64,000 bases of DNA, from NCBI GenBank assembly GCA_023362775.1, contig JALMGJ010000029.1, positions 4,468,268 through 4,532,267 of the forward strand, read 5' to 3'. Below are positions 22,054-62,911 of this stretch, one piece after another. The position numbers were made by a program, and so were the translations under genes. This DNA is from Charina bottae (Eukaryota; Chordata; Lepidosauria; Squamata; Charinaidae). Within the stretch, counting starts at the first letter, position 1; every line of letters starts with the position of its first letter. The notes under the pieces are model-generated. The model saw only the letters and a program-made list of their open reading frames with translations. It was not told where the DNA came from and made no database searches.

Positions 22054-23724
22054 ATGGGGAAAAGGAAAAAGAGGCAGCGTGCGCACTCCGCAGCACAGAA
22101 GCCACTGAAGCAGCAGAAAATGGATAATTATACAACAAGTAAAGAGACTGCTGTAGTAAGTAACTTAACCTTGGACTCCTTATCAGGTAGAGCTAACTTA
22201 CAGAGCTCAGTGGAATGGGATAGTCAACAGCTCTTAGAACTTTCCTCCTGCCTTACAGAAAATGTCTCCCCCTCCCAGACTACAGCAGCTTGCTCGGCAG
22301 CTGCTATGCTTATGCAGGAGGGAGTTGTTATGGACTTAAAAAGGGAGAATGCAAGAGACTTTATATCTAGACAGTGCTTGCTTACCGCACAGACAGTGGT
22401 TTCAATCTTCGAACTTCTAACATCAATTAAGGATCAGGTTGACTCCCTGAAGGAGTCCGTTGTAAAATTCATTAAGAACTATCCAAATAAAACAGAACGA
22501 AACAGGAAGATATCTACTACTACTCCCACCAACAGTCATCAAGGGGTTAATACAGAAAATAAAGCTGGCTCTACTCCCAAAACCGAAAGGAGGGGAAAGA
22601 ATAGCTCTAAAGAAAATAGCTCTCAACCAGGAAAAAGGCAGAGAGGAGATCCATGTAGTTATTACTTACAAACCAAACAGATTACCTTGCAGATTTATGA
22701 TAATAAAATGAATAGAGGGAGATGGGGTGATAGGAGAGCTGTTATGCTCTCGTTGAGTCTGCTGCTACGATGCGAACGCTCTCTGATAGACTTAGTGCAT
22801 GCTGAATGGCTGCCATCCAGAAGAGACTATATCCGAGTTTTGTTAATATTTAAGCAGCCTATAGTTCCCAGCATGCTTTTTAAAATGAAGCCTTTCCTGA
22901 GTACTTTTTCAATATTTCCAATACGTGTTTTTAGCTCAGAGAAAGTGAGTCCTCTCCTTGATCAGTCTTTGAAAGGGGGTAATATTGCTTTAAGTTCTGA
23001 TGGCAGTAGCAAACATACAGATAATCATGAAGTTGCTACAACAGCAATGACCCTGAGGGAGGAAATGCCAGAAGAAACGCTGATTGACTTATTTGGGGAG
23101 TTACCACAATCAGAGCAATCAGATGTTATACAAAGACTGGATGAATTAAGAGAGACATTGAAAACAACACAATCTATGGCAAAGCCATTAATAAATATGG
23201 CATTACTAAGTACTCAGGCCTGTGAAAATATATCTGTTCAACAAAATACTACTACTTCAACAGAAAAGAAATGTCTAGAAACACAGGCTGATTGTGAGGA
23301 AATGGCATTGCTCAATCCAGTCCCAGATAATTTGCAGAAAGTTAAAGTATCTTGTGTGTTAAAATCGGATGCTGGTGGTGGAATAGAACTGAGTCCTAAG
23401 GATTCTATTTCCAACCAAATGTTGTCTCAAATGAGTCCCGCATACGCTAGATCTACAGCATTTGAAGGAGAAGTTCAAAATGGGTTATGGAAAGAACTAA
23501 AGGCTGGAACATCCTTACCTGTTAGTGAGGACTTTGTTTGTTTGGATGCTGATTCTACTTTGACTCTTCAACCTGTTAAAGTATTTCATCATAATTGTCT
23601 TGCTCCCCAATCTCTGTTGGCGCTTCCCCATCAACAAGACAATGACGAAGGCAGACAACTTGTAAATCAATGTGTCTTCTTCGATACAGAAGGCATTCTA
23701 GACAACATCACCCCTGCCGATTGA
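22054..23724 (+). CDS. LINE ORF1 protein, 556 aa, family not recognised
   Basis: ORF1 of the full-length LINE. The start at 22,054 is the first ATG after the 5' UTR and is followed by a strongly basic N-terminus (GKRKKRQRAHS). Residues about 140-215 are rich in K, R, N, S and T, followed by a more globular block (KQITLQIYDNKMNRGRWGD, then RRAVMLSLSLLLRCERSLID to about residue 305) that could bind RNA. The remainder is acidic and low in structure. I see no CCHC knuckles and no clear RRM signature. By analogy with other LINEs it should coat the element RNA in the cytoplasm and help carry it to the nucleus. It ends 42 bp before the ORF2 ATG in a different frame, so ORF2 must be reached by reinitiation or another unconventional route. 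Confidence 0.85.
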   Translation: MGKRKKRQRAHSAAQKPLKQQKMDNYTTSKETAVVSNLTLDSLSGRANLQSSVEWDSQQLLELSSCLTENVSPSQTTAACSAAAMLMQEGVVMDLKRENARDFISRQCLLTAQTVVSIFELLTSIKDQVDSLKESVVKFIKNYPNKTERNRKISTTTPTNSHQGVNTENKAGSTPKTERRGKNSSKENSSQPGKRQRGDPCSYYLQTKQITLQIYDNKMNRGRWGDRRAVMLSLSLLLRCERSLIDLVHAEWLPSRRDYIRVLLIFKQPIVPSMLFKMKPFLSTFSIFPIRVFSSEKVSPLLDQSLKGGNIALSSDGSSKHTDNHEVATTAMTLREEMPEETLIDLFGELPQSEQSDVIQRLDELRETLKTTQSMAKPLINMALLSTQACENISVQQNTTTSTEKKCLETQADCEEMALLNPVPDNLQKVKVSCVLKSDAGGGIELSPKDSISNQMLSQMSPAYARSTAFEGEVQNGLWKELKAGTSLPVSEDFVCLDADSTLTLQPVKVFHHNCLAPQSLLALPHQQDNDEGRQLVNQCVFFDTEGILDNITPAD

Positions 23725-23766
23725 CTAAAAGCCTCATGTACTCTAACCCAAAATTTCAAGTCTCCA

Positions 23767-26700
23767 ATGGGGCCGCCTGCCAACATCAATTGCAAGGTTT
23801 TTCTCCACCTACTGACTTGGAACATTGCCGGTTGGAAAAATCGAGTATCTGATGGAGACTTGTTGGAATTTCTCTCTGGCTTTGATTTTATAGCTCTTCA
23901 AGAAACTTGGCTGTCCAAAGAGGAAGAAAGGATCCACATTCCAGGATTTAATTCCTGGTCAGTCCCGGCAGTGAAACACAAGACTAAAGGAAGGGCATCG
24001 GGAGGATTGTCGATACTTGCCAAGGCTGAGTTGGGTTGGCAAGGCCAGGAACTGGTGTTTGGTTTTGATTCTCCTTTCTATTTGGTGGTTAAATTTTCGT
24101 ATGAAGCAGTTGTAGTAGTACTAGTGAACATTTATCTGCCACCATATTCATCTCCATACTTTTCTCCCAACATTTGGGTAAATTTAGAAAATTTACTGTT
24201 GAAGATAAACCTTAATTACCCCAATGCTATTGTAATTTTAGCGGGAGATTTTAATGCCAGAGTGGGGGCTTCTTTATTTGATTTTGTACGACTGGGTGTT
24301 ATTCCTGAGGACTACCTTATTAACAACCCACCCTGGCGTTCTAGAGATTCCAAAAGGAACATGGCGGGTTCTCAGTTGGTCTCACTAATTTATAAATGTA
24401 ACCTTCATATTTTAGGAGGCAAAGAATCTGATTTTATATATCCGTTTACATTTCATACAGGAAACTCTAGTAGTGTCCTAGATTATATTTGTGTTTCTCG
24501 AAATAAGTCTGGGTTATTTTCAGATATTCAAGCCCATGTGAGAGAAGACAGCGATCATCAGCCGATTACAGTTTATTTTGCAGCCAGATCAGATATTAGA
24601 TCATTTATGACTTATGATAAGAGGTTACTAGCCAATATTGAAATTAGGCAAAACAGAAGACTTAGGTGGCACAAGGTAGATACAAAGGCAATAACAACCT
24701 ATCTAAACTCAGAGCAGGTTCAGTCTTGGAGAAATTCTATTTCAACTCCTTTTCAATGCCCAGACAAGATCTTGACACAATATGCTCTTTTGTCTAGCTC
24801 GTTGAGGAAATTTTTGATAGATAAAGTTCCTGCTAGAAATCATTCTCAAAACAGTATGAACTGGTTTGATTCTGATTGTCTACATACTAGGAAACATTTA
24901 AGGGCAGCAATGCGTATGGCCCAGAGTTATCCTAGTATAAAAAATCAATCCAAAATGCTACAAATCAGGAGGGAATATAAGAAACTTATTGTGTCCAAAA
25001 AAGCTCTTTATACAGCTAAAATATGGGCAGACTTGGAATTATCAGCAAAAGGAACTAATTCAATATTTTTTTGGAATTCCGTCTCGGGTTTATTGAAGGA
25101 ACGCAATTTTCAACTTGACATTCCTATACCTGCCTCAGTCTGGGAGGATTTCTATACAAGTTTATTTACTGAGTTAAACCAAAGACCCTTGCAGGAAAGT
25201 ATAATTGATCCTACCTATTTTGAAAACCTCCCTCTTTGGCCCTCAGTGTCAGTGGCAGAAGTCAAATCTATCATCCATTCCTTGAAACCCAACAAGGCTC
25301 CAGGAGAGGACTTTTTACCACCAGAACTTTTTAAAACCCATACTGACTGGTGGGCCCCATTACTTGCAGGTTTGTTTTCTTATATAAACAACACAGGATT
25401 CATTCCAGTAGGATGGGAAGTAGCAATTGTTGTCCCTATATTTAAAAAAGGAAATAGGACTGAGCCACAAAATTATAGACCAATCAGTCTTATAGGAATT
25501 GCTGCAAAAATGTATGCCAAACACCTCTTGGGCAAAATAGAGGACTGGGTAATTAGGACAACCCTCCTTGTAGAGGAACAAACTGGTTTTAGACCAGATC
25601 GCTCCACAATAGATAATTGTTTCACATTACATCATCTTATTTCAAAACAATTGGCAAATGGTAAAAAAGTGTTCGCTGCTTTTATAGATTTTACCGCAGC
25701 TTTTGATTCCATAGATAGAAACATTTTATGGAAGAAATTAATTAATTTAAATATGGAGCCCAGACTTTTATTCCTGGTAAAGGCCCTCTATTCAAATACT
25801 TATTTAAAAGTAAGAACTGGTGTAAATGGCTCTTTAACCAAAAGTATTCCTACTCATAGAGGTGTCAGGCAGGGTTGTATCTTAGCTCCAATGCTCTTCA
25901 ATCTTTATATTAATGATATTCCAGGGTTTATGCGTACCGTAGATACTCACATGTTAAAAATTCATGGCATATTTGTGAATGTCCTATTATATGCAGATGA
26001 TATGATTTTGATGGCACATTCACAAGTTGGCCTGAGAAGACTCCTGAAAAAGTTGAATGTCTATTGTGTTCATAACTCTTTAACTATAAATAAGTCTAAA
26101 TCTAAAGTGATGGTTTTTGGTAAAAGAAAAAGGATGAAATATAAATGGCAAATAAATGGGGAGCCTATAGAACAAGTGAATTCTTTCACTTACCTAGGAG
26201 TGGTTTTTACTGATACTGGAGCCTGGGACAATCATTTCAGAAGGACCGCAGGGAGGGCTGAGGTCTGTGCCAAAAGGCTATCTAAACTGTATAATTATAA
26301 ATATCCCGGCACTTTGACCCCTATTCTGAAAGTATTTAGAGCAAAAATTGTCCCAATGTTGACTTATGCGGAAGTGTGGGGTCTTACAAATTCTGCTGCA
26401 CTTGAATATGTTCAAACCCGCTTTTTAAGAAGTATACTGGGAGTTGATAAAAATATGTCAGCACCCGCAATTAGAGCAGAAACAGGTATCCACTCTATAC
26501 ATAGCCAGACAGTATCAAAGGTCTTTTCTTACTGGCAGAAGGTCCATTCAATGGACCATGATAGGCTTCCCAAATTATGCCTACTTGAACAAATGAGTTT
26601 GGATTTTACCACATCCTGGTTAAAACATCTCACTAAAGTTATTACACAATATGGATTTTCCATTCAACAGGTACTCATAACTGCACCGCAGGCAAAAGAT

Positions 26701-27201
26701 ATTTTTAAACAGCGAGCCCTGGATATCAGTGCCCAATTGGACATGGAGACATTGGCAAAAAATGGTTCATTAAAATGGTTAGCTAAGAATAAAACTATTT
26801 TTAAATTTGAAAAATACCTGTCGATGAGTCTAACACAAAATCTGAGAAGGGCCTATTCCAGGGCTAGGTTTGAATTGTTGGACTCTATGGTTAAATATGG
26901 ACGTTTTCATCATTTGCCATATGATGAGAGGACTTGTGTATGTGGGGACCCAGCCATAGAAGATATTGCCCATGTTTTGTTCGACTGCAAATTATATGAT
27001 TCACTTAGGATTAAATTCCTGTCTCCTTTGTTAGAAAGAACAGCACACTGGGATTCTAATCACAGATTATCTTATTTTCTTTCGGGCTCAAATACTTTTA
27101 TTGTGAATAGGACTGCCAAGTTTGTAGACAAGGCAGTTCACCAGAGAGCCCATTATATGGAAAAGATTGGAGTGCCATGTAGGGGTGATGAACTCATTTG
27201 A
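23767..27201 (+). CDS. LINE ORF2: APE endonuclease-reverse transcriptase, 1144 aa, intact
   Basis: The endonuclease domain spans residues about 14-275 with N19 (TWNIAGW), E46 (LQETWL), D161/N163 (AGDFNARVG) and S262-D263-H264 (SDHQPI), the catalytic set of APE-type nucleases. The reverse transcriptase spans about 495-830: NKAPGEDFLPPELF, GNRTEPQNYRPISL, motif A FIDFTAAFDSIDR (D641), motif B GVRQGCILAPMLFN (from G699), motif C YADD (742-745). Near the end a C-x-C-x9-H-x4-C knuckle (C1057, C1059, H1069, C1074) resembles the terminal zinc motifs of I/R1-superclade LINEs. No RNase H domain follows. The protein nicks target DNA and primes reverse transcription on it in the nucleus. No internal stop is present, so this copy could be active. 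Confidence 0.93.
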   Translation: MGPPANINCKVFLHLLTWNIAGWKNRVSDGDLLEFLSGFDFIALQETWLSKEEERIHIPGFNSWSVPAVKHKTKGRASGGLSILAKAELGWQGQELVFGFDSPFYLVVKFSYEAVVVVLVNIYLPPYSSPYFSPNIWVNLENLLLKINLNYPNAIVILAGDFNARVGASLFDFVRLGVIPEDYLINNPPWRSRDSKRNMAGSQLVSLIYKCNLHILGGKESDFIYPFTFHTGNSSSVLDYICVSRNKSGLFSDIQAHVREDSDHQPITVYFAARSDIRSFMTYDKRLLANIEIRQNRRLRWHKVDTKAITTYLNSEQVQSWRNSISTPFQCPDKILTQYALLSSSLRKFLIDKVPARNHSQNSMNWFDSDCLHTRKHLRAAMRMAQSYPSIKNQSKMLQIRREYKKLIVSKKALYTAKIWADLELSAKGTNSIFFWNSVSGLLKERNFQLDIPIPASVWEDFYTSLFTELNQRPLQESIIDPTYFENLPLWPSVSVAEVKSIIHSLKPNKAPGEDFLPPELFKTHTDWWAPLLAGLFSYINNTGFIPVGWEVAIVVPIFKKGNRTEPQNYRPISLIGIAAKMYAKHLLGKIEDWVIRTTLLVEEQTGFRPDRSTIDNCFTLHHLISKQLANGKKVFAAFIDFTAAFDSIDRNILWKKLINLNMEPRLLFLVKALYSNTYLKVRTGVNGSLTKSIPTHRGVRQGCILAPMLFNLYINDIPGFMRTVDTHMLKIHGIFVNVLLYADDMILMAHSQVGLRRLLKKLNVYCVHNSLTINKSKSKVMVFGKRKRMKYKWQINGEPIEQVNSFTYLGVVFTDTGAWDNHFRRTAGRAEVCAKRLSKLYNYKYPGTLTPILKVFRAKIVPMLTYAEVWGLTNSAALEYVQTRFLRSILGVDKNMSAPAIRAETGIHSIHSQTVSKVFSYWQKVHSMDHDRLPKLCLLEQMSLDFTTSWLKHLTKVITQYGFSIQQVLITAPQAKDIFKQRALDISAQLDMETLAKNGSLKWLAKNKTIFKFEKYLSMSLTQNLRRAYSRARFELLDSMVKYGRFHHLPYDERTCVCGDPAIEDIAHVLFDCKLYDSLRIKFLSPLLERTAHWDSNHRLSYFLSGSNTFIVNRTAKFVDKAVHQRAHYMEKIGVPCRGDELI

Positions 27202-28397: not shown

Positions 28398-28612
28398 GCA
28401 TATAACAATCTTGCAGCCGTGATCATATATAGTAGCAAAACTCCATGCTGTTTCGCTAGTTGTTTTTCCATCAAACCTAAAAGAAAAAGTTCTGGCTTTC
28501 TTTGTATATTTACTTTAAGAGTCTTCTGAATAATAATACATATTTGGTCCCAGAACTTTTTAGCCTTCTCACAAGTCCACCAAAGATAGTAAAAGGTTCC
28601 TTCGTCCTGTGA

Positions 28613-28962
28613 AAAACCAACAATCAGCTTGAACGAAAGAGCGAACAGATGATCTGGATCCCCATTTTCCACGTCGATCTTGATTCCCCCATATTAGCTT
28701 GTTACATAGTGGGGGAAGGACACAGGTCCTCTACTGCTAGGTCTGCATGGAAAAGAAAAGATGAGAAAAAGATAAGGAAGGAAGTTTGCAAATGTAGGGA
28801 ACAGTATGCCTGTCAACAGAGTGAGAAGAATTGAATGACACAGAGATGTTGAAATTTAATCATCTGGGTACATAGCTGGAAAAGATATACCCCATTTGGG
28901 ATAGAAAGCGTGGGTTTTGCCTGCCTGCCTGCTAGTGCATTCTTCTGTGAATGAATGTAAGA
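28613..28962 (-). pseudogene. Host-gene 3' fragment between L1 pieces, unit 1
   Basis: Corresponds to the region around the last exon of the gene at 33.6 kb (the gatgatctgg ... cacgtcgatcttgattcccc ... gggggaaggacacag block). The last-exon acceptor has lost bases (ctgctaggtctgcatgg where the main gene has aggtcatctgcatgg) and the stop region is altered (ttacatagt instead of ttaaatagt), so it is non-functional. Confidence 0.6.
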
Positions 28963-30021: not shown

Positions 30022-30474
30022 TTGCTTGCCATTCTTTCAAATCTCCACCATATTGGTCATGGCTAGTGAGAAACCAACAATCACCTTCAACGAAAGAGCA
30101 AACGGATGATCTGGAGCCCCATTTTCCAATTCGATCTTGATTCCCCCAGATTAGCTTGTTAAATAGTGGGGGAAGGACACAGGTCCTCTACTGCTAGGTC
30201 ATCTGCATGGAAAAGAAAAGATGAGAAAAAGATAAGGAAGTTTGCAAAAGGTAGGGAACACTATGCCTGTCAACAAAGTGAGAAGAATTGAATGACACAG
30301 AGATGTTGAAATTTATTCAGCTGGGTTAATAGCTGGAAAAGATATACCCCATTTGGGATAGAAAGTGTGGGTTTTGAATGCCTTCCTTTCATTTGCCAAT
30401 ACCCTCACTCCTTCCCCTTAATGAAATTACCTTCATTAATGAAGCCATCCTCATTGTCAGCATGCCAGAGGTCT
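30022..30474 (-). pseudogene. Host-gene last two exons, truncated by a Penelope element, unit 1
   Basis: The last exon is intact here (minus, from about 30,205: ...catgcag acceptor, DLAVEDLCPSPTI then stop). The penultimate exon keeps only its 3' half (DLWHADNEDGFINE, donor gtaatt near 30,430), where it is fused to the 3' end of the Penelope element at about 30,474. No upstream exons are attached, so it is a remnant of an earlier copy of the gene. Confidence 0.7.
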
Positions 30475-32245
30475 GCTCTGAGTGCCAAGCTTCCCGGAAT
30501 TCTCTAGCGTTTTTGGATTTGGCTTGGTTTAAGATGCTCACAGTTTCCTAGTTGAAAGTATGGTTGAGTCTGTCCATGTGTTGTGAGATTAAGGAGTCCT
30601 CATCGTGTCTTCTGACCGCTAGTTGGTGTTCGTGGATGCGTTCTGCTAGTCTTCTGCCGGTCTGTCCTACATAGTGGCTGCCACAGTCCTTACACTGTAT
30701 GTTGTAGATAACTCCTGTTTTTTCTTCTTCTTGGGCTACTGGGTCTTTTCGGTTACTTAAAATGTTCTGAAGGGTTTTGGTTGGTTTATGTGCTATGGTG
30801 GGGCCATATGGTTTTAACAGTCTGTTGGTAGTTTCTGAGATGTTTCTGATGTATGGCAGTGTAATCCTTTTCGTAGCTTCTGTTGGTTTCGCTGTGGTGG
30901 GTTGAGTGGTCAGGCACTTTTTGATAAAGTTGCGTGGGTATCCATTTTGCTGGAAGATGCTATATAAGTGGTCTATTTCCTTTTTCTGGTGTTCTGGGTT
31001 GCTGCAGTGCATTTGTGCTTGTCTGAATAGTGTTCTTACACAGCTCCTCTTGTGGGAGGTTGGGTTATTGCTTTGGTAGTGGAGCACTTGGTTAGTGTGG
31101 GTAGATTTCCGGTAGACTTGTGTTTCTAGAGTGCCATCATTTCCTCTACTGATGAGGATGTCCAAGAAGGGTAGTGTGCTGTTGTTTTCTTCTTCCCTTG
31201 TGAATTTTATTCCTTTGAAGATGTTGTTGATGGTTTCATGTGTTTCCTCCAGTTGTCCCTTTTTTATTATGACGAAGGTGACATCTACATACCAGATCTA
31301 TACTTTTGGTTGTATGTGTGGGAGTGCTATCCTTTATAGACGTTGCATTACAATCTCTGCTATGAGTCCTGAGAGTGGTGATCCCATAGGTGTTCCTTTG
31401 ATTTGTTGGTATATTTGTCCATCAAACTGAAAGTAGATGGTGAGGCAGAGGTTGATGAGGTCCATAATTCTGGGTATTTTGATCTTGGTGTATCTAGTTA
31501 GTTCAGGTGTGTTGCGTAGTTCTGCTGCCATGGATTCAATCGCTAGTGCTTGGTCTATGGATGTAAAGAGTGCAGTGACATCAAATGACACCGTAATTTC
31601 ATTTTCATCTATTTTTAGGCCTTTGGTTTTCTGGAGGCACTGTAGCGGAGAGTTGATAGAGTATTCGTTTTCCTCTGTGAGATGCCCAAGTTTTCTTGTA
31701 AGTTCTTTAGCTAAGTTGAATGTGGGGGTCCCTGGTAACGATACAATTGGACGGAGTGGTATGTCGGCCCTGTGCATTTTGGGCCATCTGTAGAAGCGTG
31801 GGATGATGGGTCCGCTGCTTTTCATCCGCCTCTGTTCTTCTTTTGTGATTTGACCTTTCTTGGTTAGGTCGTTGAGGATTCTTTTGACCTGGTTGTCCAG
31901 TTTCTGTATGGGATTGGTGTTTACTGGGGTGATGGTTTCTTTGTCCTCAAGTAAGTTTTTGGCTTTTTGTATATATTGCAATATATTGAATATATTTGTA
32001 TATATCTGTCCATAATGATGGTGGTGCGGCCTTTTTCTGCTTGGAGGATGATGATAGTTTGGTCCATCTTTAGGTTTTTGAGGGCTGCTCTGTCCTCTGC
32101 TTTCAGATGGTTCTGTTTCCATGTCCTTCTGGTTAGTCTGCATGTTGATTTGTTCAGGGTTAGGCATTCATGCAGAAAGAACAGCTGTTCTTTGGTGGAG
32201 GTTTGCCTACCTGCAAATTTCTCCCATTTGCGTGCTTTGCTTTGG
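30475..32245 (-). pseudogene. Penelope-like element RT with GIY-YIG endonuclease, inactivated, unit 1
   Basis: One minus-strand frame runs from about 32,240 to 30,548. It shows an N-terminal part (WEKFAGRQTSTKEQLFFLHE), then Penelope RT motifs (RFYRWPKMHRADIPLRPIV, VSFDVTALFTSID, GTPMGSPLSGLIAEI), then TGVIYNIQC ... HYVGQTGRRLAERIHEHQ, the GIY-YIG endonuclease. A TAA follows IVMQRL (31,334-31,336 area), a TAG follows a few residues later, and the catalytic YVDD reads YVDV (near 31,280). Past the nominal stop the tail (homologous to NWE...REFLEAWHS of the family) is frame-damaged. Penelope elements use a reverse transcriptase related to telomerase. The copy is dead. Confidence 0.88.
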
Positions 32246-33571: not shown

Positions 33572-36500
33572 TTAAATAGTGGGGGAAGGACACAGCTCCT
33601 CTACTTCTAGGTCATCTGCATGGAAAAGAAAAGATGAGAAAAAGATAAGGAAGGAAGTTGGCAAAGGTAGGGAACCCTACGCATCAATAAAGTGAGAATT
33701 GAATGACACAGAGATGTTGATATTTAATCAGCTGGGTACATAGCTGGAAAAGATATACCCCATTTGGGATAGAAAGCGTGGGTTTTGCCTGCCTTCCTTC
33801 TTTCACGTGCCGATACCCTCACTCCTTCCCCTTAACGTTCTAAATGAAATTACCTTCATTAATGAAGCCATCCTCATTGGCAGCATGCCAGAGTTCTGCA
33901 GGAACTTTTCGAAAAGCTTGCTTGATTTCTGTGAGCTGGAAGGGACAGAAAGAAGTGCATCACACTGTTGCCAAGGTGTCTTGGACAGCACTTTCCCTTC
34001 TTCCCTTGGCCCATCGACACAAATCTTACCCAGCAAAATATCCATTCCAGGGATTCCCCAGTTCACCATCAAATGGAATGAAGGGAAAAAGAAACCCTCC
34101 CTGCCCTTTTGTCCCAAGAGAGAGGTGAAATGAGGATGGGTTCCCAAGAGCAGTGGGGGACCCGAAGCCTGCAATCCATGGCTACTGTACGTACATTGAT
34201 CCTAGGATGGTGGTTGCAGTAGAGAAGCTGCTTCAGGACAGTGGAGAAACATCTCCAGCCATGTCGCTCAAAGTGCTGTGGGTTTGAAGAAGAGAGGACA
34301 CCTTTGCTCATTTCCTAGCACCAAGAATCTCATTGCCAAAGCACACATGCGCAGTTTATGGTGCGTTCTTCTCTAGGCCTCTGGAGCCATGCTCTCCCTC
34401 TAACATTGCCCCAGCCTTCCTAAATCCCAGGAATGCTTTGGGATGGCTTTGGATGACAGTTCCCAGCAAAGAACTCAAGGTCACACTTCTTTTTCTCATT
34501 TGCAATTCTGGCCTTGAAATATTACAGTTGAAGGTACTTGTGCAAGAAGATATCCCCGAATGAAGAAAAAGAGCTCTTTTGACCAACCAATCTTCTTCAA
34601 GTACTGGATGCCTGTCCTCAAGAACAATCCTCCAGCTACTGTTCAGAGTCGGACATTGAACAGGAGTTTTCACCCTTGATTCTGTCAATGTCTGCACTGG
34701 CCAAGTGGCTCTTCTACATCCTTACCTTCAAAATAAAAATGAAGTGCTTTGATGTTGGAGCCTGCCGAAGGAGAGCTCTGAGCGTGAGGCCGAAGGCCGC
34801 CTCCATCAATTTATTCTCTACCTGAAAGGAAAGACAGATGGTGACATGCGCTTTTCCGGAATGTCTTCCCAGTCATGTCAGCACCCAAAAGCAAGTCCCT
34901 TGAAGTGTTGGTGACAATGGTACCTCAGGAACATCCTCATCTCTGATGTCCATGGAGTCCATCCAGAGGAAGACAAAGATGTCCAGGAGCATGGTTTCCA
35001 CCGGTGGGTCCATGGCTGGTGGGACCTTGCTGTAGAGACAAAAGAAGGAAGTGATGTCAGTGCCCATCTTAGTAAAAAAAACCTGTTTGACTAAGATGTC
35101 ACTGTTCCCAAGAAAATAGGAGAAGGTGGGCAACTGCTAGGAGGTGTGGGCAGGTCAAGCCACCCTCTCTTCTCTCCACTTCAGAAGGGGAAAGTTTCCT
35201 TTCATTGGGTGGCCCCAGCTGAAAGCGTCCAAAAGGGCAGTGGACCAACTCAAGCTTCTGGGTGGTTGTCAAGGGCAGCCCTCTGTGGAGTGTGTGGCAG
35301 TAATCAAGCCGCAAAGGGACCACGGGACGAGTGACAGTCTGAAAGGCCTCCTGACCTAGGAGAGGGCACAACTGGTGCACCAGATGAAGCGGTGCTTTTA
35401 CTCTTTTGTTTGTTTTCTGTTCTCCCCCCTTTCTACTCTCTGAGTACTTCAAGGAGATTTTCCATACACACTACAAAAGAAACAAGAAATTGACCTGATC
35501 TCATAGACCGCAAGAAGTGCAGCTAGTCCTGCAGAGAAGCTGCTTAAATTGTTGTCCTCCAAGAGAGCCTGGCGGGAAACAAGAGTGGAGAGAAGCACAG
35601 AACCCAAAGTCAACCAGGCTGCTCCAGCCCACGCCTTCCTCTTTGTCCAGCCCCTTTTGACCTGCTCTTCTGCCATAGCTTGTCTTTCAGTCCAAAGGAG
35701 AATGACCCGCAGGTGAAGGACCCTTTGCATGGGCTTGTTTTTGTAAAGCTGCATTCTCTTTCTCTGATGGACTTTCAGTTCAGGGGAGCTTCTGCTGACC
35801 CTTCTGAAAACCAGGGGTAGCTTTTTCTCTCTCCCTCTACCCCTCATTTTTCCCCATCCTCCTTTGCTTGCCACTGATTTCTACATCCCTCCTTCCCTCT
35901 TACTTACCAGGACAGCAAGACTATAAAGATTCTTGTTCCGGGGAACCAGGACTTTCAGTTCCCCGCTCTGCTTCATCCGAAAGAGAGCAGCGATGGAACT
36001 CAGGCACTGGATGATGCTCTTGTCCCGCTGCAATGGAAAAGAGTCAGGCTGTCAGTCAGGCAGGACGTGGGGCATCTTGCCGACAGGTGCCCAATGGCCT
36101 CCCTTGGAGAAGGGAAGCTGGAAACCCTTCCGAGACTCTCTCTGTCCTGAGGAATCATTTGCAACACCCTGAGATTGGGCAAAGAATCTGGGATTCAAGC
36201 ACGGGAACAAACCCGAACCACGGGAACTTCTGTGTCCAAATGGGACCTACGTTTTGGGCTGCCTCGCTGTTCCTTTCATAAACCTCTTGCCAGAGGTTTT
36301 GGCTGCTCCGCAGGTCTGCTCTCACACTGGCAGCCTCGCGTTGGGCCTTGTAGGCTTTCTCGGGGTCCGTTTTTGTGAAGAGGAGCTTCCTTTTCCCTCG
36401 GCTGTCCTCTGTGGGGAAATCGGGGAAAGGAGAGACGGGCTGTGATCCTCAGACCAATTTTTAGGTCTGCTACAGATGAACAAAACCCGCCAAATCTGCC

Positions 36501-37546
36501 CTGTCTTTGCAGCCTCCTTCCCGTCAAGACCCGATTCCATCCACTAAAATTCTTTCTTGGTTCAAGAGCTGGCTCAGTCTCCTGGCCACGAGAGAAGTGT
36601 CGCGGAGGCCTTTGGCAAATCCCACTCTATATTCCCGCTCCCCGTCTGCCACTATGTAGATGAGTGCCACTGAACAATCTTGAAGGTTCCCAGAATAGTC
36701 CCATGGAAGCAGCAGAACTGGTGGGAAGTCAGTGGGGACTCGGGAGCTTCTGGAGCAGGGAGAGTTTGGCCTCCGCCCTGTCCCTGTGTGCAACCGTGAA
36801 TCGGGAGAGATGCAGAAGCGGCTCCTGTATCTGCCTATACGGAGGACTGCACTCCTAAAGGAAGTCCTTCCCTTTCCCTCCCAACGTCCCAGCCCAGCCC
36901 AAAGCGTCTACTCACCAAGCCGCTCTTCTTTCCGGAGCTCTTTGCCAATAAAAAATATCTTTTTGTGTGGAGGCTTGGCAGTGTCCTCCAGTTGGCCTGT
37001 CGCTCCTTCTGGAGAACTTGGAGCATCATCTCCTGGACCGCTTGCTTTCCTACTCTTTCTTTTTCTTCTTCCAAAACACAAAAACCAGTTGAGAAATCCC
37101 CTAGAACAGAGAGGAAGGAAGCTGAGGAAAGGAATGGACTCAAGCCCAATTTCCATAATCACTATCCCGGTGGTGGAGGTGACGCATAGTGGAAAACTCA
37201 TCCTTCTGGGTTCAACTGATCAGTTTTTACCTTGGTTTCGTTTTGTGCGACCTGGTGTGTTCCATGGCCAGATGAGTTTAACAAATGTAAGGACCTTTTC
37301 CTAAGACAGGGGTTGAGGATGCTATGTGATCTGAATCAATTTGAAAATGATCAACCCAGGCTTTTAACACCAATAGGGAATGAAAGACAGAAGTGATCTG
37401 GAGCACATTTTGCCCGTTTCCCTTTCCTAAGAGGAGAACAAATGGGTGTTTTCACCCCTGGAATATCCCAACCCACTGAGAAGTTGGCTACAAATTGGGG
37501 GAGGGTTCCCGAGAGCGCAGGAGCCCTTCTGAAGTCCAACTTACAT
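33572..37546 (-). CDS. Unrecognised 315-aa multi-exon host gene, unit 1 copy
   Basis: Coding exons in order: AT of the start codon 37,546-37,545, then 37,100-36,916, 36,408-36,251, 36,027-35,908, 35,568-35,495, 35,029-34,924, 34,821-34,726, 34,275-34,195, 33,935-33,854 and 33,615-33,572. The sum is 948 nt with no internal stop, and phases agree at every junction. Donors include gtaagt, gtgagt, gtaggt and gtacgt; exons 5 and 6 have weaker gtcaat and gtacca. Acceptors have pyrimidine tracts. The start codon is split AT|G in a good context (AGGATGG). The protein begins MGFLNWFLCFGRRKRKSRK (Gly2, Cys9, then a basic cluster), which could be acylated and membrane-bound, followed by a P/S-rich linker. 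From about residue 63 it looks mainly helical and leucine-rich (SIAALFRMK, SFSAGLAALLAVYEIRS, MLLDIFVFLWMDSMDIRDE), and it ends EELCPSPTI. I recognise no family and propose no function. No clear polyadenylation signal was seen. Confidence 0.78.
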
Positions 37547-42055: not shown

Positions 42056-42799
42056 GCAAAAAGGTCAGAAGCGTGCAACAGCAGAAATACAGCAATTATT
42101 TGCAACAGTTGAGAGTTGTAGGTGGAACAAACTCCCTGAGAGTGAGCAGAAGTCCTTTTCATCCATCCTCGAGTAACTCTATTTGGGTGAATCTTCCTGT
42201 GCCCATTGACAGTCCACATCCTCACTGAATGCTGAGGGGGCATCTTGTTTTTGGTGCTATAGACTTTCTTGACTTTGGTGGAAATTTGAGAATCTTGAGA
42301 CCACCACCTCAGTCCTTCAAATACAATATAATGTGTTCAAGTTTCAATCTCCCTTATTAATGTGACTTCATTCCGTGTGCCAGAAACCCATGAATCTTCA
42401 CAATGCGCTATCCCGTATTGCTGGATTAGCTGTGGGGTTTCATGTTTCAACTACAGTTTCTGCCTACATCACAAAGTCTCCATCAGTTGTGAATATAATC
42501 ATCTTCCTTAAATAGAGCTTGTTCCTTTAATAACTGTCTCTTTAATGGCAGTTACAGCCCAAATAGGACCACATTTATAGAATTGCAAAATGCTACCGTA
42601 TTCTGGGTTTGGGCATTCAAAGAGCATCTATCTGGTGGACCACAGAGGGAATAGAATGCTGGACGAAAGAGGCTTTCATCCAGATGCAGCTGACCTGTTT
42701 TTCGGGAGGCACACAGCAGGCGGTAAGCTGTGTTTGTTCCTATGCTTTCTTAAATGTGGTGGGAATTTAAGTGCACATCCTGAGTCCTTCACAAGGTGC
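42056..42799. other. No gene assigned; plus-strand frame near 42.6 kb
   Basis: The plus frame 42,590-42,880 includes SIYLVDHRGNRMLDERGFHP followed by DAADLFFG and a gtaagc donor-like site at 42,724, but no convincing acceptor. The paralogous sequence at 33.2 kb has a stop in that frame. Unit 2 equivalent: 60,817-61,560. Confidence 0.35.
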
Positions 42800-44150
42800 A
42801 TCCTAGGGGCAGAAGCTTGCCATTTTCTTAAATCTCCATCTTATTGGTCATGGCCAGTGAAAAACCAACGATCACTTTAAACAAATGAGCAAACAGATGA
42901 TCTGGCTCCTATTCTCCATGTTGATCTAGCTTCCCCAGCTTAGCTTGTTAAATAGGGGCGGAAGGACACAGCTACTGCTAGGTCATCTGCATTGAAAAGA
43001 GAAGATGTGAAAAAGATGAGGAAGGACGGATGTTGGCTAGAGGTAGGGAACCCTACACCTGTCAACAAAGTGAGAAGAATTCAATGAGACAGAGATGTTG
43101 AAATTTAATCAGTTTGGCACATACTGTAGATAGAAAATTTGTTCCCCATTTGGGATAGAAAGTGTGGGTTTTGCATTCCTTCCTTCCTTTCATGTGCTGA
43201 TACCCTCACCCCTTCCCCTTAATGTTCTAAATGAAATTACCTTCATTAGTGAAACTATACTGTTCTCCACCATGCCAGAGTTGTGCAGGGATTTCTGGAA
43301 ATGTGTCCTGGACTTCTGTGAGCTGGAAAAGACAGAAAGAAGTGCATCACACTGTTGCCAAGGTGTCTTGGAGACCAGTTCCCCTTCTTCCCTTGGCCCA
43401 TCGAGAGAAATCTTACCCAGCAAGACATCCATTCTAGGGATCCCCTAGTCCACCATCAAGTGGAATGAAGGGAAAAAGAACCCCCCCCTGCCCTTGTCCC
43501 GAGAGAGAGGTTAAATGAAGATGGGTTCCCAAGAGCAGGGGAGGACCCGAAGCCTACAATCCATGGTGTTATAGGTTTGCTACATACATTGATTTTAGGA
43601 TGATGGTTCCCACTGTAGAGAAGCTGCTACAAGACTGAGGAGAAACATCTCCAGCCACGTGGCTCAAAGTGCTGTGGATCTGAAGAAGAGAGGACACCTT
43701 TGCTCATTTCCTAGAACCAAGAATCTCATTGCCAAAGCACACGTGCGCAGTTTATGGTCCACTCTTCTCTAGGCCTCTGGAGCCATGCTCTCCCTCTAAC
43801 ATTGCCCCAGCCTTCCTAAATCCCAGCCTCTTTGGAAGGAGGAAGCTTTGGGATGGCATTTCCCAGAAAAGAACGCAAGGACACTATAAACATTTTTTTT
43901 TCTCATCTGCAATTGTGGCCTTGCAACATTATAGTTGAAGATGCTTGTTCGCAAAGATATCCCTGCATGAAGAAAAACAGCTCTTTTGGCAAGCCAATCC
44001 TCTTCTCGTACTGGATGCCTATCCTCAAGAACAATCCTCCAACTATTGTTCAGAGTGGGACATTGAACAGGAGTTTTCACACTTCATTCTTTGAATATTT
44101 GCATCGGCCAATTGTTCATTCAAGCGCCTCCTGGGACTTCTATGCCCTTA
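42800..44150 (-). pseudogene. Partial paralog of the host gene (exons 8-10), unit 1
   Basis: Exon 8-like 43,671-43,588 (starts HFEPRGWRCFSSVL, then TAG where the intact gene has AAG), exon 9-like 43,322-43,241 (LTEVQDTFPEIPAQLWHGG..., same 82-bp length and gtaatt donor) and a last exon near 42,994 with a small deletion that shifts its frame. Intron sequence between matches the intact gene. The stop and frame shift mark it as dead. It is more diverged from the intact gene than unit 1 is from unit 2, so it is older. Confidence 0.78.
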
Positions 44151-47650: not shown

Positions 47651-47865
47651 GCATATAACAATCTTGCAGCCGTGATCATATATAGTAGCAAAACTCCATG
47701 CTGTTTCGCTACTTGTTTTTCCATCAAACCTAAAAGAAAAAGTTCTGGCTTTCTTTGTATATTTACTTTAAGAGTCTTCTGAATAATAATACATATTTGG
47801 TCCCAGAACTTTTTAGCCTTCTCACAAGTCCACCAAAGATAGTAAAAGGTTCCTTCGTCCTGTGA

Positions 47866-48215
47866 AAAACCAACAATCAGCTTGAACGAAAGAGCGAACA
47901 GATGATCTGGATCCCCATTTTCCACGTCGATCTTGATTCCCCCATATTAGCTTGTTACATAGTGGGGGAAGGACACAGGTCCTCTACTGCTAGGTCTGCA
48001 TGGAAAAGAAAAGATGAGAAAAAGATAAGGAAGGAAGTTTGCAAATGTAGGGAACACTATGCCTGTCAACAGAGTGAGAAGAATTGAATGACACAGAGAT
48101 GTTGAAATTTAATCAGCTGGGTACATAGCTGGAAAAGATATACCCCATTTGGGATAGAAAGCGTGGGTTTTGCCTGCCTGCCTGCTAGTGCATTCTTCTG
48201 TGAATGAATGTAAGA
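47866..48215 (-). pseudogene. Host-gene 3' fragment between L1 pieces, unit 2
   Basis: Unit 2 counterpart of the fragment at 28.6-29.0 kb, with the same acceptor and stop-region defects. Confidence 0.6.
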
Positions 48216-49274: not shown

Positions 49275-49727
49275 TTGCTTGCCATTCTTTCAAATCTCCA
49301 CCATATTGGTCATGGCTAGTGAGAAACCAACAATCACCTTCAACGAAAGAGCAAACGGATGATCTGGAGCCCCATTTTCCACGTCGATCTTGATTCCCCC
49401 ATATTAGCTTGTTAAATAGTGGGGGAAGGACACAGGTCCTCTACTGCTAGGTCATCTGCATGGAAAAGAAAGGATGAGAAAAAGATAAGGAAGGAAGTTG
49501 GCAAAGGTAGGGAACCCTACGCATCAACAAAGTGAGAATTGAATGAAACGGAGATGTTGAAATTTAATCAGCTGGGTACATAGCTGGAAAAGATATACCC
49601 CATTTGGGATAGAAAGCGTGGTTTTTGAATGCCTTCCTTCCTTTCATTTGCCAATACCCTCACTCCTTCCCCTTAATGAAATTACCTTCATTAATGAAGC
49701 CATCCTCATTGTCAGCATGCCAGAGGT
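49275..49727 (-). pseudogene. Host-gene last two exons, truncated by a Penelope element, unit 2
   Basis: Unit 2 equivalent of 30,022-30,474, with the same fusion to the Penelope element and the same intact last exon. Confidence 0.65.
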
Positions 49728-52371: not shown

Positions 52372-55300
52372 TTAAATAGTGGGGGAAGGACACAGCTCCT
52401 CTACTTCTAGGTCATCTGCATGGAAAAGAAAAGATGAGAAAAAGATAAGGAAGGAAGTTGGCAAAGGTAGGGAACCCTACGCATCAACAAAGTGAGAATT
52501 GAATGACACAGAGATGTTGATATTTAATCAGCTGGGTACATAGCTGGAAAAGATATACCCCATTTGGGATAGAAAGCGTGGGTTTTGCCTGCCTTCCTTC
52601 TTTCACGTGCCGATACCCTCACTCCTTCCCCTTAACGTTCTAAATGAAATTACCTTCATTAATGAAGCCATCCTCATTGGCAGCATGCCAGAGTTCTGCA
52701 GGAACTTTTCGAAAAGCTTGCTTGATTTCTGTGAGCTGGAAGGGACAGAAAGAAGTGCATCACACTGTTGCCAAGGTGTCTTGGACAGCACTTTCCCTTC
52801 TTCCCTTGGCCCATCGACACAAATCTTACCCAGCAAAATATCCATTCCAGGGATTCCCCAGTTCACCATCAAGTGGAATGAAGGGAAAAATAAACCCTCC
52901 CTGCCCTTTTGTCCCAAGAGAGAGGTGAAATGAGGATGGGTTCCCAAGAGCAGTGGGGGACCCGAAGCCTGCAATCCATGGCTACTGTACGTACATTGAT
53001 CCTAGGATGGTGGTTGCAGTAGAGAAGCTGCTTCAGGACAGTGGAGAAACATCTCCAGCCATGTCGCTCAAAGTGCTGTGGATTTGAAGAAGAGAGGACA
53101 CCTTTGCTCATTTCCTAGCACCAAGAATCTCATTGCCAAAGCACACATGCGCAGTTTATGGTGCGTTCTTCTCTAGGCTTCTGGAGCCATGCTCTCCCTC
53201 TAACATTGCCCCAGCCTTCCTAAATCCCAGGAATGCTTTGGGATGGCTTTGGATGACAGTTCCCAGCAAAGAACTCAAGGTCACACTTCTTTTTCTCATT
53301 TGCAATTCTGGCCTTGAAATATTACAGTTGAAGGTACTTGTGCAAGAAGATATCCCCGAATGAAGAAAAAGAGCTCTTTTGACCAACCAATCTTCTTCAA
53401 GTACTGGATGCCTGTCCTCAAGAACAATCCTCCAGCTACTGTTCAGAGTCGGACATTGAACAGGAGTTTTCACCCTTGATTCTGTCAATGTCTGCACTGG
53501 CCAAGTGTTTCTTCTACATCCTTACCTTCAAAATAAAAATGAAGTGCTTTGATGTTGGAGCCTGCCGAAGGAGAGCTCTGAGCGTGAGGCCGAAGGCCGC
53601 CTCCATCAATTTCTTCTCTACCTGAAAGGAAAGACAGATGGTGACATGCGCTTTTCCGGAATGTCTTCCCAGTCATGTCAGCACCCAAAAGCAAGTCCCT
53701 TGAAGTGTTGGTGACAATGGTACCTCAGGAACATCCTCATCTCTGATGTCCATGGAGTCCATCCAGAGGAAGACAAAGATGTCCAGGAGCATGGTTTCCA
53801 CCGGTGGGTCCATGGCTGGTGGGACCTTGCTGTAGAGACAAAAGAAGGAAGTGATGTCAGTGCCCATCTTAGTAAAAAAACCTGTTTGACTAAGATGTCA
53901 CTGTTCCCAAGAAAATAGGAGAAGGTAGGCAACTGCTAGGAGGTGTGGGCAGGTCAAGCCACCCTCTCTTCTCTCCACTTCAGAAGGGGAAAGTTTCCTT
54001 TCATTGGGTGGCCCCAGCTGAAAGCGTCCAAAAGGGCAGTGGACCAACTCAAGCTTCTGGGTGGTTGTCAAGGGCAGCCCTCTGTGGAGTGTGTGGCAGT
54101 AATCAAGCCGCAAAGGGACCACGGGACGAGTGACAGTCTGAAAGGCCTCCTGACCTAGGAGGGGGCACAACTGGTGCACCAGATGAAGCGGTGCTTTTAC
54201 TCTTTTGTTTGTTTTCTGTTCTCCCCCCTTTCTACTCTCTGAGTACTTCAAGGAGATTTTCCTTTCACACTACAAAAGAAAGAAGAAATTGACCTGATCT
54301 CATAGACCGCAAGAAGTGCAGCTAGTCCTGCAGAGAAGCTGCTTAAATTGTTGTCCTCCAAGAGAGCCTGGCGGGAAACAAGAGCGGAGAGAATCAGAGA
54401 ACCCAAAGTCAACCAGGCTGCGCCAGCCCACGCCTTCCTCTTTGTCCAGCCCCTTTTGACCTGCTCTTCTGCCATAGCTTGTCTTTCAGTCCAAAGGAGA
54501 ATGACCCGCAGGTGAAGGACCCTTTGCATGGGCTTGTTTTTGGAAAGCTGCATTCTCTTTCTCTGACGGACTTTCAGTTTGGGTGAGTTTCTGCTGACCC
54601 TTCTGAAAACCAGGGGTAGCTTTTTCCCTCTCCCTCTGCCCCTCATTTCTCCCCAGCATCCTTTGCTTGCCACCGATTTCTACATCCCTCCCTCCCTCCC
54701 TCCCTCCCTCCCTCTTACTTACCAGGACAGCAAGACTATAAACGTTCTTGTTCCGGGGAACCGGGACTTTCAGTTCCCCGCTCTGCTTCATCTGAAAGAG
54801 AGCAGCGATGGAACTCAGGCACTGGATGATGCTCTTGTCCTGCTGCAATGGAAAAGAGTCAGGCTGTCAGTCAGGCAGGAAGTGGGGCGTCTTGCCGCCA
54901 GGCCCCCAATGGACTCCCTTGGAGAAGGGAAGCTGGAAACCCTTCCGAGACACTCTCTGTCCTGAGGAATCATTTCCAACACCCTGAGATTGGGCAAAGA
55001 ATCTGGGATTCAAGCACGGGAACAAACCCGAACCACGGGAACTTCTGTGTCCAAATGGGACCTACGTTTTGGGCTGCCTCGCTGTTCCTTTCATAAACCT
55101 CTTGCCAGAGGTTTTGGCTGCTCCGCAGGTCTGCTCTCACACTGGCAGCCTCGCGTTGGGCCTTGTAGGCTTTCTCGGGGTCCGTTTTTGTGAAGAGGAG
55201 CTTCCTTTTCCCTCGGCTGTCCTCTGTGGGGAAATCGGGGAAAGGAGAGACGGGCTGTGATCCTCAGACCAATTTTTAGGTCTGCTACAGATGAACAAAA

Positions 55301-56362
55301 CCCGCCAAATCTGCCCTGTCTTTGCAGCCTCCTTCCCGTCAAGACCGGATTCCATCCACTAAAATTCTTTCTTGGTTCACAGAGCTGGCTCAGTCTCCTG
55401 GCCACGAGAGAAGTGTCGCGGAGGCCTTTGGCAAATCCCACTCTATATTCCCGCTCCCCGTCTGCCACTATGTAGATGAGTGCCACTGAACAATCTTGAA
55501 GGTTCCCAGAATAGTCCCATGGAAGCAGCAGAACTGGTGGGAAGTCAGTGGGGACTCGGGAGCTTCTGGAGCAGGGAGAGTTTGGCCTCTGCCCTGTCCC
55601 TGTGTGCAACCGTGAATCGGGAGAGATGCAGAAGCGGCTCCTGTATCTGCCTATACGGAGGACTGCACTCCTAAAGGAAGTCCTTCCCTTTCCCTCCCAA
55701 CGTCCCAGCCCAGCCCAAAGCGTCTACTCACCAAGCCGCTCTTCTTTCCGGAGCTCTTTGCCAATAAAAAATATCTTTTTGTGTGGAGGCTTGGCAGTGT
55801 CCTCCAGTTGGCCTGTCGCTCCTTCTGGAGAACTTGGAGCATCATCTCCTGGACCGCTTGCTTTCCTACTCTTTCTTTTTCTTCTTCCAAAACACGAAAA
55901 CCAGTTGAGAAATCCCCTAGAACAGAGAGGAAGGAAGCTGAGGAAAGGAATGGACTCAAGCCCAATTTCCATAATCACTATCCCGGTGGTGGAGGTGACG
56001 CATAGTGGAAAACTCATCCTTCTGGGTTGAACTGATCAGTTTTTACCTTGGTTTCGTTTTGTGCGACCTGGTGTGTTCCATGGCCAGATGAGTTTAACAA
56101 ATGTAAGGACCTTTTCCTAAGTCAGGGGTTGAGGATGCTATGTGATCTGAATCAATTTGAAAATGATCAACCCAGGCTTTTAACACCAATAGGGAATGAA
56201 AGACAGAAGTGATCTGGAGCACATTTTGCCCGTTTCCCTTTCCTAAGAGGAGAACAAATGGGTGTTTTCACCCCTGGAATATCCCAACCCACTGAGAAGT
56301 TGGCTACAAATTGGGGGAGGGTTCCCGAGAGCGCAGGAGCCCTTCTGAAGTCCAACTTACAT
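52372..56362 (-). CDS. Unrecognised 315-aa multi-exon host gene, unit 2 copy
   Basis: The same model, intact. Exons: 56,362-56,361, 55,916-55,732, 55,223-55,066, 54,842-54,723, 54,367-54,294, 53,829-53,724, 53,621-53,526, 53,075-52,995, 52,735-52,654 and 52,415-52,372, again 948 nt. All splice dinucleotides, the split start and the stop are kept. Compared with unit 1 there are seven coding nucleotide differences: L8S, R116Q, R132Q, L142P, L149V, N218K and one silent change next to residue 149. Five of the seven lie in the 120-bp fourth exon. Preservation of the frame in both copies argues that the gene is real; the excess of replacement changes suggests positive or relaxed selection, or conversion from another unit. 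Confidence 0.78.
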
Positions 56363-56461
56363 CCTGGAAGACGCTTTCAGTCTGTCAACTGTCAGTAACT
56401 GACAGTTTAGCCTGGTTGGATGACGTCATAAAGCCACTAGAGTTACCAAGGAGATCACAGG
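56363..56461 (-). promoter_or_regulatory. Candidate promoter/5' UTR with CRE palindrome, unit 2 gene
   Basis: TGACGTCA is retained at 56,421-56,428. The nearby ctgtcagtaactgacag is a perfect interrupted palindrome in this copy and carries one change (g for a) in unit 1. Spacing to the split start codon equals unit 1. Confidence 0.5.
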
Positions 56462-60816: not shown

Positions 60817-61559
60817 GCAAAAAGGTCAGAAGCGTGCAACAGCAGAAATACAGCAATTATTTGCAACAGTTGAGAGTTGTAGGTGGAACAAACTCCCTGA
60901 GAGTGAGCAGAAGTCCTTTTCATCCATCCTCGAGTAACTCTATTTGGGTGAATCTTCCTGTGCCCATTGACGGTCCACATCCTCACTGAATGCTCAGCGG
61001 GCATCTTGTTTTTGGTGCTATAGACTTTCTTGACTTTGGTGGAAATTTGAGAATCTTGAGACCACCATCTCAGTCCTTCAAATACAATATAATGTGTTCA
61101 AGTTTCAATGTCCCTTATTAATGTGACTTCATTCCGTGTGCCAGAAACCCATGAATCTTCACAATGCGCTATCCCGTATTGCTGGATTAGCTGTGGGGTT
61201 TCATGTTTCAACTACAGTTTCTGCCTACATCACAAAGTCTCCATCAGTTGTGAATATAATCATCTTCCTTAAATAGAGCTTGTTCCTTTAATAACTGTCT
61301 CTTTAATGGCAGTTACAGCCCAAATAGGACCACATTTATAGAATTGCAAAATGCTACCGTATTCTGGGTTTGGGCATTCAAAGAGCATCTATCTGGTGGA
61401 CCACAGAGGGAATAGAATGCTGGACGAAAGAGGCTTTCATCCAGATGCAGCTGACCTGTTTTTCGGGAGGCACACAGCAGGCAGTAAGCTGTGTTTGTTC
61501 CTATGCTTTCTTAAATGTGGTGGGAATTTAAGTGCACATCCTGAGTCCTTCACAAGGTG

Positions 61560-62911
61560 CATCCTAGGGGCAGAAGCTTGCCATTTTCTTAAATCTCCAT
61601 CTTATTGGTCATGGCCAGTGAAAAACCAACGATCACTTTAAACGAATGAGCAAACAGATGATCTGGCTCCTATTCTCCATGTTGATCTAGCTTCCCCAGC
61701 TTAGCTTGTTAAATAGGGGCGGAAGGACACAGCTACTGCTAGGTCATCTGCATTGAAAAGAGAAGATGTGAAAAAGATGAGGAAGGACGGATGTTGGCTA
61801 GAGGTAGGGAACGCTACACCTGTCAACAAAGTGAGAAGAATTCAATGAGACAGAGATGTTGAAATTTAATCAGTTTGGCACATACTGTAGATAGAAAATT
61901 TATTCCCCATTTGGGATAGAAAGCATGGGTTTTGCATTCCTTCCTTCCTTTCATGTGCTGATACCCTCACCCCTTCCCCTTAATGTTCTAAATGAAATTA
62001 CCTTCATTAGTGAAACTATACTGTTCTCCACCATGCCAGAGTTGTGCAGGGATTTCTGGAAATGTGTCCTGGACTTCTGTGAGCTGGAAAAGACAGAAAG
62101 AAGTGCATCACACTGTTGCCAAGGTGTCTTGGAGACCAGTTCCCCTTCTTCCCTTGGCCCATCGAGAGAAACCTTACCCAGCAAGACATCCATTCTAGGG
62201 ATCCCCTAGTCCACCATCAAGTGGAATGAAGGGAAAAAGAACCCCCCCCGCCCTTGTCCCGAGAGAGAGGTTAAATGAAGATGGGTTCCCAAGAGCAGGG
62301 GAGGACCCGAAGCCTACAATCCATGGTGTTATAGGTTTGCTACATACATTGATTTTAGGATGATGGTTCCCACTGTAGAGAAGCTGCTACAAGACTGAGG
62401 AGAAACATCTCCAGCCACGTGGCTCAAAGTGCTGTGGATCTGAAGAAGAGAGGACACCTTTGCTCATTTCCTAGAACCAAGAATCTCATTGCCAAAGCAC
62501 ACGTGCGCAGTTTATGATCCACTCTTCTCTAGGCCTCTGGAGCCATGCTCTCCCTCTAACATTGCCCCAGCCTTCCTAAATCCCAGCCTCTTTGGAAGGA
62601 GGAAGCTTTGGGATGGCATTTCCCAGAAAAGAACGCAAGGACACTATAAACATTTTTTTTTCTCATCTGCAATTGTGGCCTTGCAACATTATAGTTGAAG
62701 ATGCTTGTTCGCAAAGATATCCCTGCATGAAGAAAAACAGCTCTTTTGGCAAGCCAATCCTCTTCTCGTACTGGATGCCTATCCTCAAGAACAATCCTCC
62801 AACTATTGTTCAGAGTGGGACATTGAACAGGAGTTTTCACACTTCATTCTTTGAATATTTGCATCGGCCAATTGTTCATTCAAGCGCCTCCTGGGACTTC
62901 TATGCCCTTAG
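61560..62911 (-). pseudogene. Partial paralog of the host gene (exons 8-10), unit 2
   Basis: Unit 2 counterpart, with the same TAG in the exon 8-like segment (62,431-62,348) and the same last-exon deletion; exon 9-like 62,083-62,002. Confidence 0.76.

Follow-up and report, generated by a model that had tools for sequence, protein, structure and literature searches.

A ten-exon gene encoding a protein of 315 amino acids is present on the minus strand of a 64,000-nucleotide stretch of the genome of the snake Charina bottae (contig JALMGJ010000029.1, C200:4468268-4532267; hereafter the window), and there is very little doubt that it is real and protein-coding and was kept by selection. Two tandem units of the window, A and B, each carry a copy, and both are part of a family with at least 25 places in this genome, 18 of them with an open frame. 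The first-pass annotation had proposed ten exons and 315 amino acids, intact in both units. The exon borders of unit A were re-placed, giving ten exons that total 948 nt and nine introns that all read GT...AG, and base-by-base alignment of unit B with unit A showed equal exon lengths, identical splice dinucleotides and an open frame, so that this part of the annotation was confirmed in full. The start codon is split, with AT closing exon 1 and G opening exon 2, which produces the context AGGATGG in the spliced message. The sequence CCAGGAT/GTAAGT at the end of exon 1 was present in 19 of the 20 copies that have this exon, the exception being L031. No AATAAA was found directly downstream of the stop, over 2.2 kb in unit A and 1.8 kb in unit B.

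Relatives of the protein were searched among 5.8 billion proteins with a method that needs shared five-residue words and similar length. At E <= 1 there were five matches, every one of them a snake protein: Liasis, Crotalus, Ahaetulla (two) and Pantherophis. The best was the Liasis protein (70% identity, 98% of the query, E 3.3e-145), and the Crotalus match showed 51% identity over 98%. In a profile search, scoring covered the 7998 candidates with the most words in common; it yielded two further Crotalus proteins and none outside snakes. The seven relatives (Liasis olivaceus PHA67_024406; Crotalus tigris LOC120309687, LOC120309688 and LOC120307068; Ahaetulla prasina LOC131204986 and LOC131204932; Pantherophis guttatus LOC117667869) belong to the same protein family, with 48-70% identity over 52-98% of the query, and all are named 'uncharacterized'. 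So far the family has been found in snakes only; the search ran by shared words and does not establish that lizards lack it. When the relatives were aligned to the window by tblastn, exons 2-9 were matched in order, with no match on the short exons 1 and 10. The gene model is beyond chance because five proteins from four snakes match it and the complete frame is open in another 16 copies of this genome. The gene had been described as previously unrecognised, which holds for the literature searched, where no paper names the seven loci, but not for the databases, where pipelines already predict relatives in four snakes. It is unstudied rather than unseen, and the family is unnamed.

Selection was evaluated mainly against L029, a divergent copy of the same genome. 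In comparisons of L029 with each of the 17 other full copies, the rate of nonsynonymous change (dN) was 0.088-0.103 and that of synonymous change (dS) 0.30-0.35, with a ratio of 0.27-0.31; selection has therefore kept the frame. Unit A differed from L029 by 62.5 nonsynonymous differences in 721 sites and 53.5 synonymous differences in 203 sites (p 2.7e-10), and across the five copies so tested p ranged from 2.4e-10 to 1.7e-8, these comparisons sharing one branch and not being independent. Between unit B and L029 the introns differ by 15.6% and the exons by 12.4%. Long-term purifying selection is thus shown between L029 and the other copies. The proportion of nonsynonymous differences (pN) was 0.137 over the first 62 codons versus 0.066 in exons 4-9, and over the 136 pairs that the 17 remaining copies form, dN/dS averaged 0.47. 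The two window units by themselves do not show selection: they differ at 7 of 948 coding bases and 41 of 3026 aligned intron bases (p 0.17), and of the seven coding changes six are nonsynonymous and one is synonymous. Hence, the earlier argument that both units keep the frame was right about the frame and weak alone; the dN/dS against L029 is the stronger one.

In order to count the copies, the genome (1.80 Gb, 278 contigs) was searched with exons 4 and 6; each matched at least 25 places, and more divergent members may exist. On C200, exon 4 was found at nine places at 0.98-1.10 Mb, four at 4.50-4.56 Mb (two of them inside the window, with a spacing of ~18.6-18.8 kb) and five at 9.33-9.40 Mb, and elsewhere on C207 (three), C227 (two), C267 (one) and C212 (one). 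Exon 6 had one place on C225 lacking an exon 4 match and none on C267. Stretches of ~6 kb round the 23 exon 4 places outside the window were each scanned for all ten exons. The full frame was open in 18 of the 25 places (units A and B, L010-L014, L016-L022, L024-L026 and L029), which lie on C200 (15), C227 (2) and C207 (1). Two of these carry a flaw: the exon-4 donor of L021 is broken although its frame is open, and the projected exon 10 of L026 contains one surplus base, with the stop still reached. The other seven (L009, L015, L023, L027, L028, L030 and L031) were incomplete within the 6-kb stretch: L015 showed exons 4-9, and in L030 exons 3, 4 and 9 contain stops. Wider stretches were examined for L023, L027, L028, L031 and the C225 place. 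All ten exons were then visible in L027, whose start reads ATA instead of ATG; L023 has exons 3-10, with an extra base in exon 10; L028 has exons 4-10; in L031 exons 5-10 are ordered and exons 1-4 absent, broken or out of order; and the C225 place has exons 6-10 only, with odd lengths of exons 7 and 10. In a tree of the copies, the four of the window region grouped together (support 99/99), as did the nine at 0.98-1.10 Mb (100/100), and 10 of the 13 inner branches were poorly supported. These groupings match tandem-array behaviour.

Three of the places had an unusual layout. In the 6-kb stretch of L009 (C267:21762081-21768198), on a contig off the arrays, the only exon found was exon 4, at 98% identity. 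Exons 4 and 5 are ~7 kb apart in both L023 and L027 (continued in L032-L035), which lie at 9.35-9.38 Mb on C200.

Comparison with the relatives separated an older form of the gene from the amplified one. The Liasis tblastn match at exon 3 extends 12 nt upstream of the proposed acceptor, and L029 has the form found in Liasis, with the exon 3 acceptor 12 nt upstream, an exon 8 of 84 nt and a stop after ...EEL. Unlike the snake relatives, the window copies begin exon 3 12 nt later, have an exon 8 one codon shorter and run six residues past ...EEL. Residues equal to Liasis numbered 241 of 315 aligned in L029 and 219 of 309 in unit A. At the upstream exon 3 site of the window copies (36409-36421 and 55224-55236) DFPT is still readable as in Liasis, the preceding AG is now CG, and the first AG after it keeps the frame; the window copies appear to use this shifted acceptor. 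The same arrangement (CG upstream, AG at the window's acceptor) was found in all 17 full copies other than L029 and in the partial copies L023 and L027, whereas L029, L030 and L031 have AG at the upstream acceptor and AC at the window's place. The protein ends at ...E(E/D)L in L029 and in the relatives that reach the C-terminus (P0001, P0002, P0004 and P0006); CPSPTI is read after ...EEL in 17 of the 17 full copies other than L029. Exon 8 has 81 nt in six of these 17 (A, B, L013, L014, L016 and L017) and 84 nt in the other 11 and in L029. Taken across the copies, these patterns indicate that the peculiarities of the window probably arose inside the amplified branch of this genome. We would not take the six-residue C-terminal extension as defining, and would keep the window copies as family members.

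In the Liasis prediction, residues 1-51 align with exon 6 plus the intron that follows it. This part probably derives from an upstream copy, which suggests that Liasis also has a tandem neighbour copy. The Liasis assembly is called unannotated in PMC12611248, though a Liasis protein prediction exists in the database.

The protein had not been recognised by the first-pass annotation, and hidden Markov model searches of Pfam and NCBIfam likewise gave no family of weight, nor was there a PDB-sequence relative of weight. The Pfam models SEN1_N (best E 0.0047, 3 of 10 members) and WRC (best E 0.032, 4 of 10) matched weakly, below their curated cut-offs in the members tabulated; NAM, bpX0 and DUF5560 matched weakly in one of 10 members each. 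HP1233_fam, the sole weak NCBIfam match among four proteins, reached E 0.09 and 13 bits against a cut-off of 50, and a PDB profile match to tubulin polymerization-promoting protein (E 2.5) was gone with a larger alignment. A viral structure library, searched with the Crotalus model only, contained no match at E <= 0.001. Structure models of two relatives predict a helical ARM/HEAT-like core after a low-confidence N-terminus. In these predictions the basic N-terminal third is probably disordered, and the roughly nine helices behind it would stack into an ARM/HEAT-like alpha-solenoid. Comparison with ARM/HEAT/TOG alpha-solenoids (importins, CLASP, XMAP215-type TOG domains) gave 2-13% identity with no family standing out, and the N-terminal third of the snake models is of low confidence.

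The basic N-terminus that had been proposed was confirmed in the sequence, and the predicted models of relatives agree with a helix-rich body. Residues 1-11 read MGFLNWF[S/L]CFG, with one variable position across all 18 open frames, and the basic run comes next. The suggestion that the N-terminus is possibly acylated did not fare as well. When tested with a PROSITE-type Gly2 pattern for N-myristoylation, units A and B failed; the inferred N-terminus of Liasis fits, and Crotalus has Ala2 and no Gly2.

The best explanation of these data, to which we give somewhat better than even chances, is a functional, tandemly amplified snake gene that encodes a membrane-tethered alpha-solenoid adaptor, and the doubt in it sits almost wholly in the mechanism. 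The alpha-solenoid, with conserved columns in exons 4-8, would be a protein-binding scaffold, since binding is the simplest role for a helical scaffold of this size in which no catalytic domain is recognised. The hydrophobic stretch with Cys and the basic run behind it (MGFLNWFSCFGRRKRKSRK) would anchor the solenoid at the membrane; the protein would then act as a membrane-tethered adaptor devoid of catalytic activity, at a dose set by gene copy number. Two observations weigh against such an anchor: taken together, the first 62 codons evolve faster than the core, and the start of the Crotalus protein is quite different. Basic runs can act as nuclear signals, and this one is kept in 18 of 18 open frames with small changes, so the scaffold may instead be nuclear, with RRKRKSRK as its localisation signal and no hold on the membrane. 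The constant hydrophobic MGFLNWF just before the run would, however, be unusual for a simple nuclear signal, and we regard this alternative as unlikely. About equally unlikely is that the gene is ancestrally real and most array copies, including those of the window, are decaying and carried by unequal exchange, with L029 or a few others working. The excess of nonsynonymous changes between A and B would fit such decay, as would the Leu of unit A at residue 8 (Ser in unit B and L029) and at residue 142 (Pro in unit B, Gln in L029), the broken exon-4 donor of L021, the ATA start of L027, the stops of L030 and the 3' fragments in the window; the full frame kept in 18 of 25 places and the mean dN/dS of 0.47 among the copies other than L029 argue against it.

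Two further origins have much lower probability. The protein could be a vertebrate MROH (maestro HEAT-like repeat) protein that has diverged and become shorter, which we consider very improbable. Only a resemblance and the general fold class speak for this, a helical repeat fold being common to both (known for MROH, predicted for the snake family), but no sequence or profile match joins them. The maestro models PF21047, PF23227 and PF23210, which the MROH proteins found do carry, were not among the matches listed up to E 10 for 6 and for 10 members of the snake family, a negative limited by the HMMER filters, which drop most matches above E 0.1. Alignment with hhalign against 12 of 40 MROH proteins, with a shallow family alignment (effective number of sequences, Neff, ~1.6), gave E 0.25-0.31 and a probability of ~0.2% over 23-25 columns, and the best match of a direct BLASTP comparison, at E 0.24, carried no weight. 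MROH membership is thus unsupported by Pfam, profile or BLASTP comparison, and no paper on maestro proteins in a snake or squamate context was found in the literature searched. Finally, that the exons are a chance chain of splice sites and no gene is refuted by the homologous proteins in four snakes and the dN/dS near 0.3, and its probability is negligible.

Features of the window, with positions counted from its first nucleotide
Feature	Position	Strand	Basis or remark
Unit A exon 1, coding part (AT of split start codon AT/G)	37545..37546	-	Border placement
Unit A exon 2, hydrophobic/basic N-terminus	36916..37100	-	Border placement, tblastn match of relatives
Unit A exon 3, acceptor 12 nt downstream of the Liasis-implied one	36251..36408	-	Borders, tblastn, copy comparison
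Unit A exon 4	35908..36027	-	Borders, tblastn, genome matches
Unit A exon 5	35495..35568	-	Borders, tblastn
Unit A exon 6	34924..35029	-	Borders, tblastn, genome matches
Unit A exon 7	34726..34821	-	Borders, tblastn
Unit A exon 8, 81 nt	34195..34275	-	Borders, copy comparison
Unit A exon 9	33854..33935	-	Borders, tblastn
Unit A exon 10 with stop; CPSPTI read past the stop point of L029	33572..33615	-	Borders, copy comparison
Unit B copy, ten exons	52372..56362	-	Base-by-base alignment with unit A
Unit B exons 1-5	56362-56361, 55916-55732, 55223-55066, 54842-54723, 54367-54294	-	Alignment
Unit B exons 6-10	53829-53724, 53621-53526, 53075-52995, 52735-52654, 52415-52372	-	Alignment
Decayed paralog, exons 8-10	42598..44116	-	Stop in exon 8; exon 8/9 splice dinucleotides intact
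Decayed paralog, repeat in the next unit	61359..62876	-	Similarity to first copy
3' gene fragment, exons 9-10	30024..30476	-	Repeated at 49277-49731
3' gene fragment, exon 10	28609..28930	-	Repeated at 47862-48183
Palindrome TGACGTCA before unit A, begins 66 nt upstream of start codon	37605..37612		Exact match
Palindrome TGACGTCA before unit B, 66 nt before start	56421..56428		Exact match

The tandem array occupies positions 19842-64000 of the window in units of ~18.6-18.8 kb, with four gene-bearing units counting the flanking contig; in the first 19.8 kb no credible further family exon was found (best E 0.088). The decayed paralog was said to keep its exon 8 and 9 boundaries, and it does: besides the splice dinucleotides, the acceptor of exon 10 is intact. 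Overall, the earlier interpretation is partly supported, the gene, the paralog and the basic N-terminus having stood and the novelty, the acylation and the two-unit argument needing revision.

The palindrome TGACGTCA, which we take to be similar to a cAMP response element (CRE), was exact in 13 of the 20 copies with exon 1 (that of L031 being out of order) and changed in L029, and the sequence round a third match, at 18386, is unrelated. A conserved CRE promoter element was ruled out on these counts; absent from L029, the palindrome is at best a recent feature. A bacterial promoter scan was uninformative for this gene.

Several retroelements lie in the window. The first array unit contains a long interspersed nuclear element (LINE) insertion of ~5.5-6 kb within 21.5-27.4 kb, which the next unit does not have. 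A long open LINE (22054-27201) has an open reading frame (ORF) of 1144 amino acids with endonuclease and reverse transcriptase domains and, ahead of it, one of 556 amino acids with no Pfam match. The reverse transcriptase of another retroelement, split over two ORFs, is found at 6289-8098. An element at 30548-32167 on the minus strand, repeated at 49803-51212, sits between the gene fragments in both units; its first copy gave weak reverse transcriptase and GIY-YIG matches below the Pfam cut-offs, and presumably it resembles a Penelope-like element.

Families that are lineage-restricted, amplified and fast-changing are often a sign of conflict or reproduction. It is possible, and we propose it tentatively, that this is a snake-restricted helical scaffold family with no sequence-recognisable ancestor and a membrane-holding N-terminus, amplified until 18 open copies were present in this genome, of which a single 9.4-Mb contig carries 15 in three clusters, and with a fast-evolving role, for example in reproduction or host-parasite conflict. 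A gene model read from splice sites alone can prove to be a real, selected gene, here belonging to a multi-copy snake family that pipelines had predicted piecemeal and for which no paper was found in the literature searched. With the copy number, the array structure and the divergent reference copy L029 at hand, its expression, dose and selection are directly testable.
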